64,000 nucleotides of DNA from contig NZ_JAHIAB010000009.1 in the NCBI RefSeq assembly GCF_018760365.1, positions 124,001 through 188,000 on the forward strand, in the 5' to 3' direction. The DNA is from Pseudooceanicola endophyticus. GTDB taxonomy: Bacteria > Pseudomonadota > Alphaproteobacteria > Rhodobacterales > Rhodobacteraceae. The position numbers were made by a program, and so were the translations under genes. Below the pieces are notes generated by a model. The model did not search any database. It saw nothing but the letters and a program-made list of their open reading frames with translations, and was not told the origin of the DNA. The first letter of the stretch is position 1. Every line of letters starts with the position of its first letter. Positions 3,437 to 9,188 of this stretch are shown one piece after another.

Positions 3437-4636
3437 TCAGGCTTCTTCCATGCCGTCGAAGGCCCCGGGGTTCAGCTCTTCCCAGAAGGCGCGGATGGCC
3501 TCGGCGTTCAGCGCCGACATCCAGCCGTAGCGCTCGAAATCGTCCCGCGCCGCGCCTTCCAGCTGCGACAGGAACAGCCGACGGTCGGCATCGCGCTGCG
3601 TCGGCGTGCGGGCGGCAACCAGCTCCTGGATCCGGCCCAGCCGCCGGGCCCGGGGCGAGGACGGGTTTCGCGGCGAAACCTCGGGGGCGGCGGCGGGCTC
3701 CGGGTTGCCGTAATCTGCACGCAGCGCGGCGGTCAGGTAGCCCACCGCGTTCTTCACGCCCCCCTGCCCCGCGATGTAGTCGAGCTTCTGGCGCACGTAG
3801 TCCTCGCCATGTTCGCCGACCCATTGCCGGGCCAGACGGTCGCTGACGCCAAGCGCCCGGATGCGGGCATAGACGTCGGAGTTGCGCAGCCCCTCGCCGT
3901 CGTCCAGATCCAGGATCGCCAGCTGCGGGTTCTCGGCGATGCGGAAGCGGATGTCCGTCACCGTGCGGCCCATCTTGCGGACCTCGGGCGTCACCACGAT
4001 GTTGGAGGTCTTGTTCACCTCGGCCACCGCCGGCTTGATGATCTTGGCGTTGAGATGCTTGAACGTCTCGTAATAGGGGCTGTCGGCCACCCCCATCAGG
4101 CGGCGGAACAGCTCCAGGCTCCACCAGCCGGTGGACCCCGTGCGCACGAAGCGGTAGCAGTTCTCGTAAAGCGCCAGCGCATGGCCCGAGGTGAAGCGCC
4201 GCTGGATGTTGAGGTTGATCAGCGCGAAGACCTTCGGGTCGTTCAGCTTCTCGGCCAGCGCCGGGGAATAGGCGTATTCGCAGACGCCGCCCTTCAGCTT
4301 GGCATAGGCCAGCAGCGCGCTGACCCCCCATTCCTGCTGGCCGTCGGCATCCAGCATGTCCCATTCGGCGACGGTCTCGGCCAGGCCGCGCAGGCTGGCC
4401 TTCAGCGTCTCCATGTCGTTCGAATTGTAGCCGATCATCAGGCAGAGCGTCTTGGCGTCGATCCGGTGCACCTGCTGGCTGACCAGCGTGTCATAGGCAT
4501 TCAGCAGCAGGACGTTGGACAGCTTGCGCTGCAGCAGCGTCAGCTTGCCCGAGACGTGGATCGCCGCCACGTGTTTCTTGACGGCGCCGCGGCGCAGGCT
4601 TCCGGTCAGCCGGTCACGGGGAATGATGTCTTCCAT
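3437..4636 (-). CDS. Plasmid replication initiator, Rep_3 superfamily type
   Basis: 399-residue protein resembling Rep_3-type initiators, which bind iterons at the plasmid origin and open it for replication. The N-terminal half carries the family pattern: KKHVAAIHVSGKLTLLQRKL, then SNVLLLNAYDTL, then a winged-helix region with TLCLMIGYNSNDMETLKASL (about residues 55-75). A second winged helix follows (FTSGHALALYENCYRF, TGWWSLELFRRLMG). The C-terminal quarter is charged and less recognisable. The start at 4636 (MEDII) removes a 36-residue low-quality extension; no strong ribosome site is visible. Divergent from parA across a 560-base origin region. One parS-like palindrome lies inside the gene at 3664-3680. 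In Rhodobacterales classification it probably corresponds to a RepB-type replicon, but the class name is inferred. Confidence 0.8.
   Translation of the reverse strand: MEDIIPRDRLTGSLRRGAVKKHVAAIHVSGKLTLLQRKLSNVLLLNAYDTLVSQQVHRIDAKTLCLMIGYNSNDMETLKASLRGLAETVAEWDMLDADGQQEWGVSALLAYAKLKGGVCEYAYSPALAEKLNDPKVFALINLNIQRRFTSGHALALYENCYRFVRTGSTGWWSLELFRRLMGVADSPYYETFKHLNAKIIKPAVAEVNKTSNIVVTPEVRKMGRTVTDIRFRIAENPQLAILDLDDGEGLRNSDVYARIRALGVSDRLARQWVGEHGEDYVRQKLDYIAGQGGVKNAVGYLTAALRADYGNPEPAAAPEVSPRNPSSPRARRLGRIQELVAARTPTQRDADRRLFLSQLEGAARDDFERYGWMSALNAEAIRAFWEELNPGAFDGMEEA
3664..3680. promoter_or_regulatory. parS-like palindrome, copy 1 (inside rep)
   Basis: Perfect 17-base palindrome around one central base, GGTTTCGCGGCGAAACC. 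Its 15-base core GTTTCGC-N-GCGAAAC recurs at 5898-5914 and 6678-6692. It lies within the initiator coding region and encodes VSPRN on the rep strand. The likely role is a ParB-binding centromere site. Confidence 0.6.
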
Positions 4637-4780
4637 GCGGGGGCCCTGTCTGTGCTCCGCCCGGGTCCGCGCACGGCCCGAGTCATTGTGCTCGGGACGA
4701 GTATGCCTGCATAAGGTGCCCAGGCGCAAGCGCGACGCTGGCACCTTTCGGGTCTCCCGGAAACGGGTACCTTGGCCTCT

Positions 4781-4808
4781 GTAGCCGGTTCGAAAGGTAC
4801 CCGGCTAC
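4781..4808. promoter_or_regulatory. Inverted repeat upstream of rep, candidate operator
   Basis: Perfect 8-base arms GTAGCCGG (4781-4788) and CCGGCTAC (4801-4808) separated by 12 bases that include GGTAC. It lies about 145-170 bases upstream of the rep start. Rep_3 initiators often bind inverted half-iterons in their own promoter to limit their expression, and this site is placed for that. Function is inferred. Confidence 0.4.
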
Positions 4809-4898
4809 GGGATCGCCCCGCCGGAGCCCCCCGCCCCGTCCCGGGCTGCGGGCGCAAACAGACTCGAAACCTGGGGGAATTGCAGGCTTCGGGCAGCG

Positions 4899-5008
4899 AA
4901 AAGCCCCGGTTCCCGGGAATCGGTGCCCCTGATCCCGCAGATGGGTGCCTTTGGTCCCGGATCCGGCGCCCCCTGGTCCTGAAAACGGGAACCTATGAGC
5001 CCCTATCC
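4899..5008. repeat. Five degenerate 22-bp direct repeats (iterons)
   Basis: Units at 4899-4920, 4921-4942, 4943-4964, 4965-4986 and 4987-5008 are exactly 22 bases apart. Aligned, they share the consensus GGGtgCCcctGgtCCc in the first 16 columns: columns 6-7 and 14-15 are CC in all five and column 11 is G in all five. The first unit is weakest in its left half. A 22-base period is about two helical turns, typical of iterons that bind initiators of this type. Confidence 0.65.
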
Positions 5009-5196
5009 GTCTGAGAACAAAAAGGTTATTCCGCCGGAAAGTCCTTAAATAGACTCTCAAAGAGCAAAAACACTTGCTGCTGCTGTCTGATTTTTGTCTC
5101 TTTTCAAGGAAATCGGTGCCGACTGATTCCCATTCCCCCAGACATGTGCGATAGTTTCCCGGATATCTGGTAAAACAGCGGACATGCGGAGTTTCC

Positions 5197-6612
5197 ATGG
5201 CACCGAAATCCGGCAACGGGTCGTCTTCCGGCCTGCCCCCCTATTTCAACATCGATCCCGCGAAGGCCGCAAGTCTGCTGTCCGAGCCGATCACCACGAC
5301 CCGTTTCGCCAAGGCCGCGAACTTTGCCATGCGGGGCCGCGATGATCTGGCTCGGCGCGGCTATGCGCCCGACGGAGAGAAGCGGCTGCGCAAGTTCTCC
5401 ACCTGGGAAGTCTGCCGCTACCTGATCCCGGTCGGCGCCGGCCATCTGCGCCGGGTGCTGCGCACCCACCCCGAGCTGCCCCAGGGCACCGGCGAGGGCC
5501 ATTCGAAATGGTTCACCCTGGAAGAGGTCCTGCGGCTGCGCGACCACTTCGCCGAGGAAGGCGATCCCAACCGCGAATATGCCGCCTGGCGCCCCGAGGG
5601 GCTGCCCGCCAAGGTCGTCGCCGTGGCGAATTTCAAGGGCGGCGTCGGCAAGACTTCGACCGCCGCGCATCTGGCGATGTCGGCGGCGCTCGATGGCTAC
5701 AAGGTGCTGGTGATCGATCTGGACAGCCAGGGCTCGATGACCTCGATCATGGGCGGCAAGGTCGAGGACGAATGGCAGACCGCCTTCCCGCTGCTGGCGC
5801 GCGACTATGCCCGCCACCTCCAGGAAGAGAACCGGGTCCGCGAAGCTCAGGGCCAGGCCCCTTTCCCCTTCGACGAAACCCTGACCGAGGCGCTGACGGT
5901 TTCGCCGCGAAACCTCGTCCAGAAGACCCACTGGCCGAACATCGACCTGATCGGCGCGCAGCTGAACCTCTACTGGTCCGAATTCCAGGTGCCGGTCTGG
6001 CGGATGAACCTGCGCAGCTGGCCGCTCTGGGACGCCTTGCAGAACGCGCTGGAGGATTCCGGGCTGCTGGACGATTACGACGTGGTGCTGCTGGATACCC
6101 CGCCCGCGCTCGGCTACCTGACGATCAACGCGCTCTCGGCGGCCGATATCCTGCTGGTGCCGCTGGGCGCCTCCTTCCTTGAGTTCGACAGCACGGGGCG
6201 GTTCTTCGACATGATCTACTCGACCTTCGCCTCGATCGAAGAGGGCGAGAACCGGATCCGCCGCCAGGACGGCCTGCCAGAGATGCGCTTTGAATGGGAC
6301 GCCGTGCGGGCGCTGGTCACCCGCTTCGATGCCGCCCAGCAGACCGATCTGGCCAACGTCATCCAGGCCTATTTCGGCGATTTCATGACCACCTACCGCC
6401 AGGAGATGACCGCCATGGTCGGCCAGGCCGGCGAGCAGGTCTCGGGCATCTACGAGATCGACTACCGCGACTTCAACCGCGACACCTACGTGCGTGGGCG
6501 CGAGACCTTCGACCGGACCTGGGCGGAGGTGAAGCAGGTGATCCTGGGAACCTGGTGGCGCGATCAGCAGATGGCCGCCGCCGAGCAGACCCCGCGCGCA
6601 GAGGAGGCGTAA
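5197..6612 (+). CDS. parA: Plasmid partition ATPase ParA
   Basis: 471-residue ParA-type partition ATPase that drives segregation of the replicon with ParB and parS. The N-terminal ~130 residues form a DNA-binding extension (FSTWEVCRYLIPVGAGHLRRVL, a MerR-like helix-turn-helix seen in plasmid type Ia ParA proteins), which in relatives represses the par promoter. The deviant Walker A motif KGGVGKT is at residues 147-153, followed by VLVIDLDSQGSMTS and DYDVVLLDTPPALGYLTINAL for the other nucleotide-binding motifs. Length is normal for the family. GGAG lies five bases before the ATG. parB follows after three bases. A parS-like palindrome lies inside the gene at 5898-5914. Confidence 0.95.
   Translation: MAPKSGNGSSSGLPPYFNIDPAKAASLLSEPITTTRFAKAANFAMRGRDDLARRGYAPDGEKRLRKFSTWEVCRYLIPVGAGHLRRVLRTHPELPQGTGEGHSKWFTLEEVLRLRDHFAEEGDPNREYAAWRPEGLPAKVVAVANFKGGVGKTSTAAHLAMSAALDGYKVLVIDLDSQGSMTSIMGGKVEDEWQTAFPLLARDYARHLQEENRVREAQGQAPFPFDETLTEALTVSPRNLVQKTHWPNIDLIGAQLNLYWSEFQVPVWRMNLRSWPLWDALQNALEDSGLLDDYDVVLLDTPPALGYLTINALSAADILLVPLGASFLEFDSTGRFFDMIYSTFASIEEGENRIRRQDGLPEMRFEWDAVRALVTRFDAAQQTDLANVIQAYFGDFMTTYRQEMTAMVGQAGEQVSGIYEIDYRDFNRDTYVRGRETFDRTWAEVKQVILGTWWRDQQMAAAEQTPRAEEA
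5898..5914. promoter_or_regulatory. parS-like palindrome, copy 2 (inside parA)
   Basis: Perfect 17-base palindrome GGTTTCGCCGCGAAACC within the parA coding region, identical to the reverse complement of the copy in rep at 3664-3680. It encodes VSPRN, as does the rep copy. Confidence 0.6.
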
Positions 6613-6615
6613 CCC

Positions 6616-7719
6616 ATGGCCAAGCGTCGCAAGCTGGAAGCCCCTTCGGTCCAGGATCTGAACCGGCTGGAAGAGGAGTTTCGCCGCGAAACCCCCGCCG
6701 AGGGGGGCGGGCGTCCGCGTGCCTCGCTGGCCGCGCCCATCGCCCAGGTGGCCGCCGAGGCCGCCAGCAGCCACCAGCCGCGCCCCGCCGAGGAGCGCGC
6801 CGCCCAGGCCCGCGACCAGCGCGACGCCGAGCGGCTGCGCGAGGCCGAGGGCCGCGGGCTGGTCATGCTGGAGATCCCGCTGGACGAGATCGACCCCGAT
6901 GCGCTGGTGCGCGACCGGGTGGTGCTGGATGCCGAGGAGATGCAGGAACTGCAGCTCTCGATCGCCGCGAACGGGCTGCGCCTGCCGGTCGAGGTCTTCG
7001 CGCTGGCCGAGGGGCAGGGCTATCGCTACGGGCTGCTGTCGGGCTACCGGCGGCTGCGGGCCTTCCAGGCGCTGAAGGGGGGAAACCCGCGCGCCGGGAC
7101 CTACGACACGATCAAGGCCGTGCTGCGCGAGCCCGAGGCCATGGGCGGCACCTTCGCCGCGATGATCGAGGAGAACGAGATCCGCTCGGGGCTGAGCCAT
7201 TTCGAGCGCGGCCGGATCGCGGTGATCGCCAGCCAGCAGGGCGCCTTCGTCAACGTCGAGGCGGCGGTGGACGGGCTGTTCCCGATGGCCTCGAAGGCGA
7301 AGCGTTCGAAGATCCGCAGCTTCGCGCTGATCTTCGAGGAGCTGGGCGACATGCTGGCCTTCCCGGATCTGATCCGCGAGAAGGACGGGCTGAAGATCGC
7401 CGCCGCCCTGCGCAACGGTGCCGAAAGCGCCCTGCGTGAAGCGCTGGCGCGCCGCCATGCCGAGACCCCCGACGAGGAGGCCGAGATGCTGACCGCCGCC
7501 CTGGCCGAGGTCACGCCGAGCGATCCCGATCCCCGCAAGGGGGGGCGCCCGAAGAAGCAGCCCGAGACGCGCTCGGTGCCGCTGGACAGCGGGATCGTGC
7601 TGGAATACGGGCCGGAGGGGAAGGGCTGGACCATCCGCCTGAAGGGCCGCCGTCTGGACCGGGAGCTGGTGGAGCTGGCGGTTTCCGAGCTGGAGCGGAT
7701 GCTGTCCCGGGACCGCTAG
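6616..7719 (+). CDS. parB: Plasmid partition protein ParB
   Basis: 367-residue ParB/RepB-type centromere-binding protein. The ParB N-terminal (Spo0J-like) domain is seen in MLEIPLDEIDPDALVRDRV and LQLSIAANGLRLPVEVF, then YRYGLLSGYRRLRAF, which corresponds to the GxRRxxA-like CTP-binding patch. Next comes the ALREP..GTFAAMIEENEIRSGLSHFERGR segment and a helix-turn-helix region. The C-terminal ~80 residues, with a KGGRPKKQ stretch, look like the dimerisation part. It starts three bases after the parA stop, so it is in the same operon. A 15-base parS-like palindrome lies near its 5' end (6678-6692). Confidence 0.93.
   Translation: MAKRRKLEAPSVQDLNRLEEEFRRETPAEGGGRPRASLAAPIAQVAAEAASSHQPRPAEERAAQARDQRDAERLREAEGRGLVMLEIPLDEIDPDALVRDRVVLDAEEMQELQLSIAANGLRLPVEVFALAEGQGYRYGLLSGYRRLRAFQALKGGNPRAGTYDTIKAVLREPEAMGGTFAAMIEENEIRSGLSHFERGRIAVIASQQGAFVNVEAAVDGLFPMASKAKRSKIRSFALIFEELGDMLAFPDLIREKDGLKIAAALRNGAESALREALARRHAETPDEEAEMLTAALAEVTPSDPDPRKGGRPKKQPETRSVPLDSGIVLEYGPEGKGWTIRLKGRRLDRELVELAVSELERMLSRDR
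6678..6692. promoter_or_regulatory. parS-like palindrome, copy 3 (inside parB)
   Basis: Perfect 15-base palindrome GTTTCGCCGCGAAAC, identical to the core of the copies in parA and rep but in a different reading frame (it encodes part of EFRRETP). Keeping the DNA palindrome in a different frame argues for selection on DNA, not protein. Confidence 0.6.
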
Positions 7720-7815: not shown

Positions 7816-8532
7816 ATGGCCATCCATCCCGAAAGGGCCCAACCGGAACGCACCCTGCTGGTCCAGGACGGGCAGGTGCGGGCGGTGGCCAGACATGCGC
7901 TTGAGGTGGACGTGCACCTGAGCCTCGGGGCCGACCGCGAGGGGCTGGGCGCCGCGATCCGCTCGGTGCTGGCCAATGCCGGCAGCGGGGTCAGCCCGCG
8001 CCGGGTGGAGGCGCTGGTTGCCTCGGCGGTCAGTGCCCGCATTGCCGACCGGCTGGAGCACGAGTTCGACGCGTTGCAGCGGGCCTATGGGGCGATGCTG
8101 GATGCGCGGATGCCCGAGGGCACCGACCAGGCGGTGCTTGAGGCGCTGACCCGCACCCGGCTGCGCCACGCGCTGCTGGAAGGGGCACAGCTGGTCGACC
8201 AGGCCCAGGCCTGCGAGCTTCTGGGGCGCTCCACCGCCAACCCCTCGGCCACTATGAAGCGGCTGGAGCAGAAGGGCCTGCTACGCTTCCTGCGCGCCGG
8301 GCGGGCGGCCTATCCGCTGTTCCAGTTCGACACCGACGCCCAGCAGGTGCATCCGGTGGTCCCACGCATCCTGGCCGCGCGGCCCGAAGGCATGTCGGAT
8401 TTCGCCGTGCTGCAATGGTTCAGCGCCTGGCACGAGGAATTCCAGGGCCCGCCGCGCGATCACCTGGCCCGGGCCCCCGAGGCGGTCTTCCAGGCCTTCC
8501 TGCGCAGCACCGAGGCGCCGCAGCACGGATGA
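7816..8532 (+). CDS. Probable antitoxin of a RES-type toxin-antitoxin pair
   Basis: 238-residue protein with no membrane segments. It has a helix-turn-helix-like segment in the middle (DQAQACELLGRSTANPSATMKRLEQKGLLRF), then a region rich in aromatic residues. Its C-terminus (FAVLQWFSAWHEEFQGPPRDHLARAPEAVFQAFL) resembles the toxin-binding domain of Xre/MbcA/ParS antitoxins, where a paired helix leads into the RES toxin gene. Its stop TGA overlaps the ATG of the RES gene (ATGA), the coupling typical of antitoxin-toxin operons. It has an extra N-terminal ~90 residues compared with common MbcA-like antitoxins, and I cannot assign that part. Sits directly after parAB, where it would add plasmid stability. 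Confidence 0.6.
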   Translation: MAIHPERAQPERTLLVQDGQVRAVARHALEVDVHLSLGADREGLGAAIRSVLANAGSGVSPRRVEALVASAVSARIADRLEHEFDALQRAYGAMLDARMPEGTDQAVLEALTRTRLRHALLEGAQLVDQAQACELLGRSTANPSATMKRLEQKGLLRFLRAGRAAYPLFQFDTDAQQVHPVVPRILAARPEGMSDFAVLQWFSAWHEEFQGPPRDHLARAPEAVFQAFLRSTEAPQHG

Positions 8533-9188
8533 TCTTCAGCCTGACCCTTCCGCCCGTGACGGCCTTTCGTCCGGGCGCAGAGGCGCATGTGGAGCTGCCC
8601 GAGGGCCGCGTGCTGCATCGCATCCACCCCGCGGCCTATGCGGCGGCGGCGTTCAATCCGACGGGGCTGGGGCAGGCGCGGTTTTCGCCGCTGCGGGACG
8701 GGCAGGGGGATGTGATCGCGACGATCTACGCCGCCGAAAGCTTCGAATGCGCCCTGGCCGAGACGATCCTGCGCAGCCCCGACCATCCGGAGGTGCCCGG
8801 CAGCCTGCGGGTGGAAAGCCCGGCCCGCTGGCGGGACTATTGCCACAGCACGGTGCGGCTGACACGGGCGCTGCGGCTGCTCGACCTCTCGACGCAGGGG
8901 CAAAGGCGCATCGGGGTGGAACATGCGGCGCTGACCGCAGGCCCAACCCGCAGCTATCCCGAGACCCGTGCCTGGGCGGAAATGCTGCACCGCAGCTTCC
9001 CCGGCATCGACGGGCTGCATTACCATTCGCACCAGTATGGTCCGGATGCCGCGATGCTGCTGTTCGGTGACCGGGCGGGGGATGCGCTGGTTGCGGCGGG
9101 GCTCAGCCGGGCGGTCGGCGATCCCGATTGCCACCGTGCGATCTATGCCCTGGGGCAGTCCCTGGGCATCACCTATATCGACCTCTAG
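8529..9188 (+). CDS. RES-domain toxin
   Basis: 219-residue RES-family protein. RES toxins are ADP-ribosyltransferase-like enzymes that deplete NAD+ or modify Prs when freed from their antitoxin. Candidate family residues can be seen: Arg31 (VLHRIHP), Arg51 (ARFSPL), the YAAESFECALAET segment with Glu70/Glu78, and Ser167 in HYHSHQYGPD. The start ATG at 8529 overlaps the antitoxin stop; the open frame extends further upstream inside the antitoxin gene, but that extension is not family-like. The C-terminus ends in GITYIDL. The gene ends about 35 bases before a strong hairpin. Confidence 0.75.
   Translation: MIFSLTLPPVTAFRPGAEAHVELPEGRVLHRIHPAAYAAAAFNPTGLGQARFSPLRDGQGDVIATIYAAESFECALAETILRSPDHPEVPGSLRVESPARWRDYCHSTVRLTRALRLLDLSTQGQRRIGVEHAALTAGPTRSYPETRAWAEMLHRSFPGIDGLHYHSHQYGPDAAMLLFGDRAGDALVAAGLSRAVGDPDCHRAIYALGQSLGITYIDL

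Follow-up and report, generated by a model that had tools for sequence, protein, structure and literature searches.

Perfect palindromes within the rep, parA and parB genes of a Pseudooceanicola endophyticus plasmid as a probable dispersed parS centromere

We analysed a stretch of 64,000 nucleotides from Pseudooceanicola endophyticus (RefSeq assembly GCF_018760365.1, contig NZ_JAHIAB010000009.1, positions 124,001 to 188,000 of the forward strand), which is called the window in the following and belongs to a contig of 236,921 bp. Its subject here is a replication and partition module and a short palindrome that is repeated inside the genes of this module. The rep gene (3437..4636, minus strand) encodes a Rep_3 family replication initiator of 399 aa (Pfam Rep3_N 1.8e-20, Rep3_C 6e-16). 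It diverges from parA (5197..6612, plus strand), which encodes a partition ATPase of 471 aa with an N-terminal extension (Pfam AAA_31 2.6e-30) and is followed after a gap of 3 bp by parB (6616..7719, plus strand). The ParB product, of 367 aa, is a DNA-binding protein with the ParB/Noc/KorB fold and the proposed binder of the palindromes. A Walker-type parA that adjoins a parB is the arrangement of the ParABS systems, and a Rep_3 initiator with a homologous parAB in divergent orientation is the arrangement of the RepB-type replicons of the Rhodobacterales.

A pattern scan of the window found the palindrome GTTTCGC-N-GCGAAAC exactly at 3665-3679, 5899-5913 and 6678-6692. The first copy is part of a perfect 17-bp palindrome in the 3' part of rep (GGTTTCGCGGCGAAACC, 3664..3680), the second of another perfect 17-bp palindrome in codons 235-239 of parA (GGTTTCGCCGCGAAACC, 5898..5914), and the third is a 15-bp palindrome about 63 nt into parB (GTTTCGCCGCGAAAC, 6678..6692); no strand is assigned to any of them. 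These positions, one in each of the three genes, agree with the original prediction, which had noticed no other copy in the 64 kb. The window has no further match even if up to 2 mismatches are allowed, and dinucleotide shuffles of the window at the same tolerance gave 0.31 matches on average, without a single shuffle out of 100 reaching three. In the whole assembly (46 contigs, 5,226,282 bases) the exact pattern occurs three times, always in this module, which means that the 15-bp form is not scattered over its own genome. Allowing one mismatch adds 2 further places, and the reversed control pattern has no exact match and 3 places at up to one mismatch. A chance origin of the palindromes is ruled out by the shuffles, the assembly counts and the reversed control. 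Translated, the palindrome reads VSPRN in Rep and in ParA and (E)FRRET, in a different frame, in ParB, just as had been predicted.

We compared the module with its relatives in a set of 110 modules, composed of the window, the loci found by ParB similarity (30 loci in 248 genomes of the family, the window's own included) and the loci found by ParA similarity in named genomes, for which the best 80 of 417 loci were used (ParA identity 77-94%); some genomes were reached through both searches. Loci, genomes and contigs are referred to by L, G and C numbers. A perfect palindrome of the GTTTCGC family, including close variants, is present in 106 of the 110 modules. In the other four (L033, L040, L041, L066) all the sites are hybrids, with C in one arm and T in the other and one mismatch to the consensus, and none of the 110 lacks both the perfect and the hybrid form. 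Thus, the palindrome is retained in close homologues. This retention and the lack of scattered copies in the own genome are the outcomes of two checks that the original prediction had set for itself, and both speak for it. Furthermore, when each module was scanned de novo for recurrent perfect palindromes, only L026 and L048 gave any outside the GTTTCGC family, two in all.

Regarding the location of the sites, which were counted with a pattern that includes the hybrids, the most frequent slot is the first 110 nt of parB (90 of 110 modules), followed by parA past its first 100 nt (62 modules) and by the 120 bp downstream of parB (54 modules). Where rep is near-complete (77 modules), it carries a site in 29 cases, and 18 of the 110 modules have one upstream of parA, around 76-120 bp before the inferred start. 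The first 100 nt of parA, the later part of parB and the rest of the stretch account for 5, 5 and 6 of the 110 modules respectively. Most modules have two or three sites (50 and 41 modules); one site was found in 8 modules, four in 10 and six in 1. No module among the 77 with a near-complete rep lacks an intragenic site, so none has intergenic sites only; 37 of them have intragenic sites and no others.

In order to estimate how many copies the proteins themselves would produce, synonymous codons were redrawn for the actual proteins with the codon usage of each module. We observed 24 exact copies in rep against 0.035 expected (77 genes), 54 in parA against 0.116 (109 genes) and 75 in parB against 1.13 (110 genes), that is, 153 in-gene copies against 1.3, although the modules are related and the copies cannot be counted as independent. 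The parA genes with a site keep the codons GTT TCG [CT]CN CGA AAC constant at the slot while the neighbouring codons drift, and parA genes without the site mostly have different residues there, such as VSARD or ITAQD. In Rep, the residues around the slot are hypervariable. The parB slot has almost identical DNA in different modules but two reading frames, which give EFRRET or GFAAKP, and GFARET where the spacer has 2 bp. Judged from these sequences, selection is acting on the DNA and not on the peptide, in agreement with the original prediction, and the unexpected part of the pattern is that the palindromes are kept up against codon drift. The opposite explanation, that VSPRN or FRRET is the selected peptide and the palindrome a by-product, could appeal to the presence of VSPRN in both Rep and ParA. 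Nevertheless, it is hardly credible in view of the 153 copies, the two frames at the parB slot, the other residues at the parA slot without a site, and the existence of intergenic copies. RNA hairpins or intrinsic terminators have equally little chance of being the explanation: the palindromes could fold as RNA and some copies lie just after parB, but none of the 56 sites just downstream of parB has 5 or more T among 8 bases after it, the three terminator-like matches between 3200 and 8000 of the window do not fall on a palindrome, and many copies are located mid-gene.

The sites are also concentrated at the module in other replicons. We hand-picked 8 complete plasmids from the 60 listed among 526 found, with sizes from 57 to 889 kb (2.39 Mb in total), including P. 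versutus pTAV3 (889 kb) and the 72-kb plasmid of D. shibae. In all 8 plasmids every copy of the form with a 1- or 2-bp spacer, 19 of 19, lies in the module or just past parB. Of the 248 family genomes, 49 contain the exact 15-bp pattern, with 106 copies altogether, whereas the reversed control has 21; of the 75 places listed, 59 are at most 8.5 kb from a ParB match. The 2-bp-spacer sequence GTTTCGC-NN-GCGAAAC, which is the centromere sequence of the RepA-type plasmids, is multicopy in some genomes (23 in G105, 19 in G035, 18 in G133, 14 each in G092 and G149), its reversed control being absent from these five; in G035 (including contig C1), G092 and G133 the copies are scattered over contigs. 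At 12 loci with chromosomal 2-bp-spacer sites (L119, L123, L125, L127, L132, L134, L136, L141-L144 and L146) we found no ParB nearby; 9 of the 12 have outer T/A, and 7 of 11 lie outside genes according to a naive call of open reading frames (ORFs). These scattered sites may belong to a chromosomal regulator or a Noc-like system, or may be usable by a plasmid ParB.

The palindrome changes together with ParB. The P. endophyticus genome has further ParB-like modules, two of which were examined. The first belongs to a replicon of the RepA type (Pfam RPA) on contig C11; its ParA and ParB are 69% and 43% identical to those of the window, and it has four GTTTCGC-GC-GCGAAAC sites and no 15-bp form. 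The second, on contig C29, has a ParB with 36% identity and twelve GTAACCC-AC-GGGTTAC palindromes. These twelve are 37-70 bp apart at the contig end (L116:3777-4276, G000:C29), which is a classical clustered centromere layout. The comparison comprised 63 modules, the three own modules plus 60 stretches around ParB matches; the latter were hand-picked by the ParB match only, mostly in genomes with at least 2 matches, and do not represent every such match. The triplet RSK occurs in the putative recognition helix of ParB in all the 44 modules with at least one TTTCGC-type site. Another recurrent palindrome, starting with GT or CT, was found in 13 modules, and 12 of these have a non-RSK triplet, the remaining one being G097:C13 (CTTTCGC-2). 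The helix HKMKRSYIRSF is paired with GTAACCC in 6 of 6 modules. Therefore, the module has what is expected of a ParABS system, namely cognate palindromic sites near the operon that covary with ParB.

Most probably, judging from these sequence comparisons, ParB is the protein that binds the palindromes, and two other proteins of the module have to be weighed against it. Rep_3 initiators bind iterons and inverted repeats, one palindrome lies in rep and all of them are near the probable origin, so they might be sites of Rep, either operators or origin elements. However, the gap between rep and parA has iteron-like repeats of its own. A repeat scan placed the probable origin at 4755..4994 (plus strand), with direct repeats of about TCCCGGAAACGGGTACCT that start at 4755, 4911, 4933 and 4977 (steps of 156, 22 and 44 bp); together with a partial copy at 4955, those from 4911 to 4977 follow 22-bp steps, and there is a weaker copy at 5103. 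By their sequence, these repeats are the likely sites of Rep, separate from the palindromes. In addition, the half-site covaries with the recognition helix of ParB, and RepA-type replicons, whose initiator (PF10134) is set apart by its Pfam family, have homologous ParAB and share the GTTTCGC half-site. Since the Rep_3 and RPA initiators belong to different Pfam families and both types of module share the half-site, the shared ParAB and not Rep is the likely reader, and binding by Rep is highly improbable. The other possibility is that the palindromes are transcriptional operators of ParA, which is of type Ia and has an N-terminal extension. The strong conservation of ParA and the 18 modules with a copy upstream of parA would fit this explanation, but most copies are far from the parA promoter (in the middle of parA, at the 5' end of parB, past parB or in rep) and it is the helix of ParB that covaries with the half-site. 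Therefore, we consider ParA a quite improbable binder.

The protein itself supports ParB as the reader. A profile search of the PDB with the window's ParB matched Noc and ParB structures (Noc 7ol9, 3e-11). With the predicted structure model (pLDDT 87.6), Foldseek found Noc (3e-7), KorB (8qa9, 1.4e-5) and also ParB, with low whole-chain TM-scores (0.30 to the query). Profile and Foldseek matches together point to a ParB/Srx CTPase fold with a helix-turn-helix, the latter placed by alignment only. In the model the palindrome slot corresponds to the end of the helix 12-25, just before residues 31-36, the sole segment with pLDDT below 50.

Taken together, the three palindromes are very probably a dispersed, largely intragenic parS centromere of the plasmid's own ParABS system, and the mechanism that we propose is part of this reading. 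It predicts that ParB binds the GTTTCGCNGCGAAAC duplex. A ParB dimer would read the GTTTCGC half-sites, each arm being contacted by one helix-turn-helix. If it behaves like known ParB proteins and KorB, it would then shut as a CTP clamp, slide away and coat the 3-kb rep-parA-parB region, and ParA would move the loaded ParB complex, resulting in segregation. Within the maintenance genes, the sites would occupy positions at which the encoded protein can accommodate the residues that they impose, and because parB usually has a copy close to its 5' end, the centromere would travel with the gene of its reader. The original prediction of a ParB centromere dispersed over three genes is thus strongly supported by the conservation of the DNA in homologues, the restriction in complete plasmids and the covariation with ParB, with ParB binding as a predicted step. 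Over the family as a whole, the layout is only partly intragenic in many modules, given the additional copies downstream of parB and upstream of parA. From the example of KorB it is plausible, as the original prediction suggested, that this layout couples the spreading of the partition complex to how the maintenance genes are expressed, and ParB loading could possibly also affect rep/par transcription. A scan for sigma-70 consensus promoters between 3200 and 8000 of the window found none.

Several observations weigh against this interpretation. The module counts are not independent, because the modules are related, some are identical and some genomes were reached twice; the 126 rows of the ParB tree described below contain 117 distinct ParB sequences. 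Since coding sequence makes up most of the module, some of the intragenic placement would be expected anyway. The Pfam ParB_N match of the window's ParB (4.7e-5) is under the cut-off, and 16 of the 75 listed places in the family genomes have no ParB match nearby. Fisher's test of helix triplet against palindrome type in 57 modules, which supports the covariation with 1.8e-11, ignores relatedness and is post hoc: the triplet was chosen after inspection, and the thresholds differ, with one site required for the TTTCGC type and two (recurrent) for the others. No recurrent palindrome was found in the stretches of 6 of the 63 modules. Two of the six have RSK: G153:C25, a genuine exception without any site within 2 mismatches in the 9.5 kb examined, and G203:C9, whose stretch is broken by a contig end and where the other end has two sites. 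The others are G226:C45, G239:C2, G130:C13 and G137:C7. Finally, site variants are mixed within L104, L106, L023, L030 and L111.

Regarding these variants, the window's form with a 1-bp spacer is the commonest one, and around 10 of the 110 modules have a 2-bp spacer at some or all sites. It is found at every site of L025, L028, L032 and L114, as a variant coordinated over the whole module. The inner T/A form, GTTTCGT-N-ACGAAAC, occupies all three sites of L017 and all four of L079, which count as one event because their ParBs are identical, and it is also present at 1 of 3 sites of L011 and 1 of 4 sites of L111. In L030 the spacers have 1 bp upstream of and in parA, and 2 bp in parB and downstream. 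L030, L108 and L112 have extra CTTTCGC-N-GCGAAAG palindromes in parA, at about parA+125. The Salipiger-like modules L040, L041, L048, L062 and L066 have in parA the hybrid palindrome GTTTCGCCACGAAAC, with C in one arm and T in the other, which is a possible intermediate between two specificities.

The bases that flank the half-sites vary as well. In the 220 one-bp-spacer sites of the 110 modules the left outer base is always G or A and the right one is C in 194; an outer T never occurs on the left and only twice on the right (as A). By contrast, in C11 and the RPA modules among the 60 stretches, outer T/A flanks 24 of the 32 sites with a 2-bp spacer and 5 of the 7 with a 1-bp spacer. Spacer and outer base vary separately: there are Rep_3 modules with a 2-bp spacer (G035:C6, G067:C28, G072:C3 and G149:C4) and RPA modules with a 1-bp spacer (G107:C5 and one site of G035:C3). 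The genome G107 has one module of each initiator type: the RPA module has six one-bp-spacer sites, mostly T-flanked, over around 8.5 kb (G107:C5, L182), and the Rep_3 module has five with the same spacer that are flanked by G or A (G107:C13, L181). In all the 17 genomes compared, the extended palindromes of co-resident site-bearing modules differ, by the spacer in 12 genomes and by the outer base in 5 (G035, G067, G107, G126 and G149). These covariations suggest a code in which the spacer has 1 or 2 bp, the inner base is C or T and the outer base is mostly G or T, and which would keep apart co-resident replicons with homologous ParBs. However, co-resident modules may differ because of their clade ancestry and not because compatibility was selected for. 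Mapping the variant label onto the ParB tree takes 7 changes, while shuffled labels take 27 on average. The tree has 126 rows, 109 of the 110 modules (L049, whose ParB is cut short, was left out) and 17 further rows, namely L115 and 16 loci (L118-L145) for which the label is circular because they were chosen for holding the 2-bp-spacer pattern. Among the ParB residues listed as separating 1-bp from 2-bp spacers are 240 and 251, from only 9 two-bp ParBs of the first set, which are clustered on the tree. Residue 207 is K in 3 of 3 T-variant ParBs and also in around 10% of the 97 others. In sequence terms, residues 240, 251 and 207 are a lead to the determinants of spacer and variant, and not a result.

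Joining all these elements, a family of Rhodobacterales replicons might hard-wire the centromere into its own rep/par genes, mostly in the first ~100 nt of parB, so that the gene of the reader carries its own site. A compatibility code would be placed on the GTTTCGC half-site (spacer, outer base and inner C/T), with hybrids as evolutionary stepping stones and with clamps metering the transcription of rep, parA and parB. In this full extent the proposal is tentative, and we would not be surprised if it had to be given up. It is worth taking into account that one Rhodobacterales cell may have up to twelve extrachromosomal replicons, as stated in PMC9025767. Natural ParB-parS pairs that are one central bp or one outer base apart could give testable rules on how cross-talk is avoided. 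Moreover, the conserved intragenic sites are examples of DNA sites that take precedence over codons and residues in maintenance genes. They are also a test case for ParB clamps within transcribed genes as regulators of plasmid copy number and partition gene dosage.

Directly after parB, at 7816-9188 of the window, there are two genes. The product of one has 238 aa and matches no Pfam family, and the other encodes a RES-domain protein (PF08808, 1.5e-17). From its sequence, this cassette looks like a RES-type toxin-antitoxin pair, i.e. a plasmid addiction system.

Several known systems can be compared with these sites. Palindromic, group-specific parS sites are known for the RepABC replicons of Rhodobacterales (PMC5613091, PMC9040568). 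The RepABC parS of Alphaproteobacteria has the consensus GTTNNNNGCNNNNAAC and is located at the 5' end of repB in Rhizobiales and within ORFs downstream of repC in Rhodobacterales (PMC9040568). The window sites resemble them in being palindromes in or near the rep/par operon with GTT...AAC ends, and the RepA-type sister sites GTTTCGC-GC-GCGAAAC even fit the 16-bp RepABC consensus. However, the window sites have 15 bp and an odd centre, unlike the 16-bp sequence, they lie in the coding sequences of rep, parA and parB, and the module has a divergent Rep_3 initiator and no RepC in one operon with repA/repB. Furthermore, the NCBIfam scores are under the cut-offs of the RepABC proteins, both for ParA (RepA TIGR03453, 1.2e-63, 215.3 bits, cut-off 348.45) and for ParB (RepB, 35.2 bits, cut-off 201.5).

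The operator O_B of KorB has the odd-centred consensus TTTAGCSGCTAAA. KorB of RK2 is a CTP clamp with the ParB fold that silences promoters by sliding over more than 1 kb, and its operators, given as 16 bp in PMC11790492, are near the target promoters or more than 1 kb away from them. The likeness consists in the ParB fold (the Foldseek match to 8qa9); the half-site sequence is different, and the window-type sites are dispersed only within a module of a few kb. The sliding of the KorB clamp makes a coupling to expression physically possible. In Streptomyces, the plasmid SCP1 has a dual ParABS with three sites around each operon, and its two co-resident ParBs distinguish similar parS cores of 13 bp and 15 bp with strict specificity, by ChIP-seq and BLI (PMC13245405). 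Therefore, co-resident ParBs can separate closely similar parS cores. In SCP1, however, both ParABS systems are on one plasmid, and conserved intragenic slots do not appear in the available description of it (PMC13245405). Regarding the chromosomal parS, TGTTTCACGTGAAACA (PMC5450999), its GTTTC...GAAAC ends are like those of the window half-sites, whereas the inner bases and the spacing differ.

The closest relatives are the 72-kb plasmid of D. shibae, which has been named RepB-I (PMC9426580), and P. versutus pTAV3, both with a divergent rep and parAB and a homologous ParB. Our literature search, the scope of which did not include the original papers on pTAV3 and on DnaA-like plasmids, met no description of these palindromes in RepB-type modules, and a search by the letters of the motif gave no relevant paper among the matches listed. 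The references that PMC3235114 gives for centromere-like regions include the 2005 pTAV3 paper. Thus, although there is some risk that a part of this is already in print, the sites are of a known kind, ParABS/parS, and it is their layout and their code that look new.

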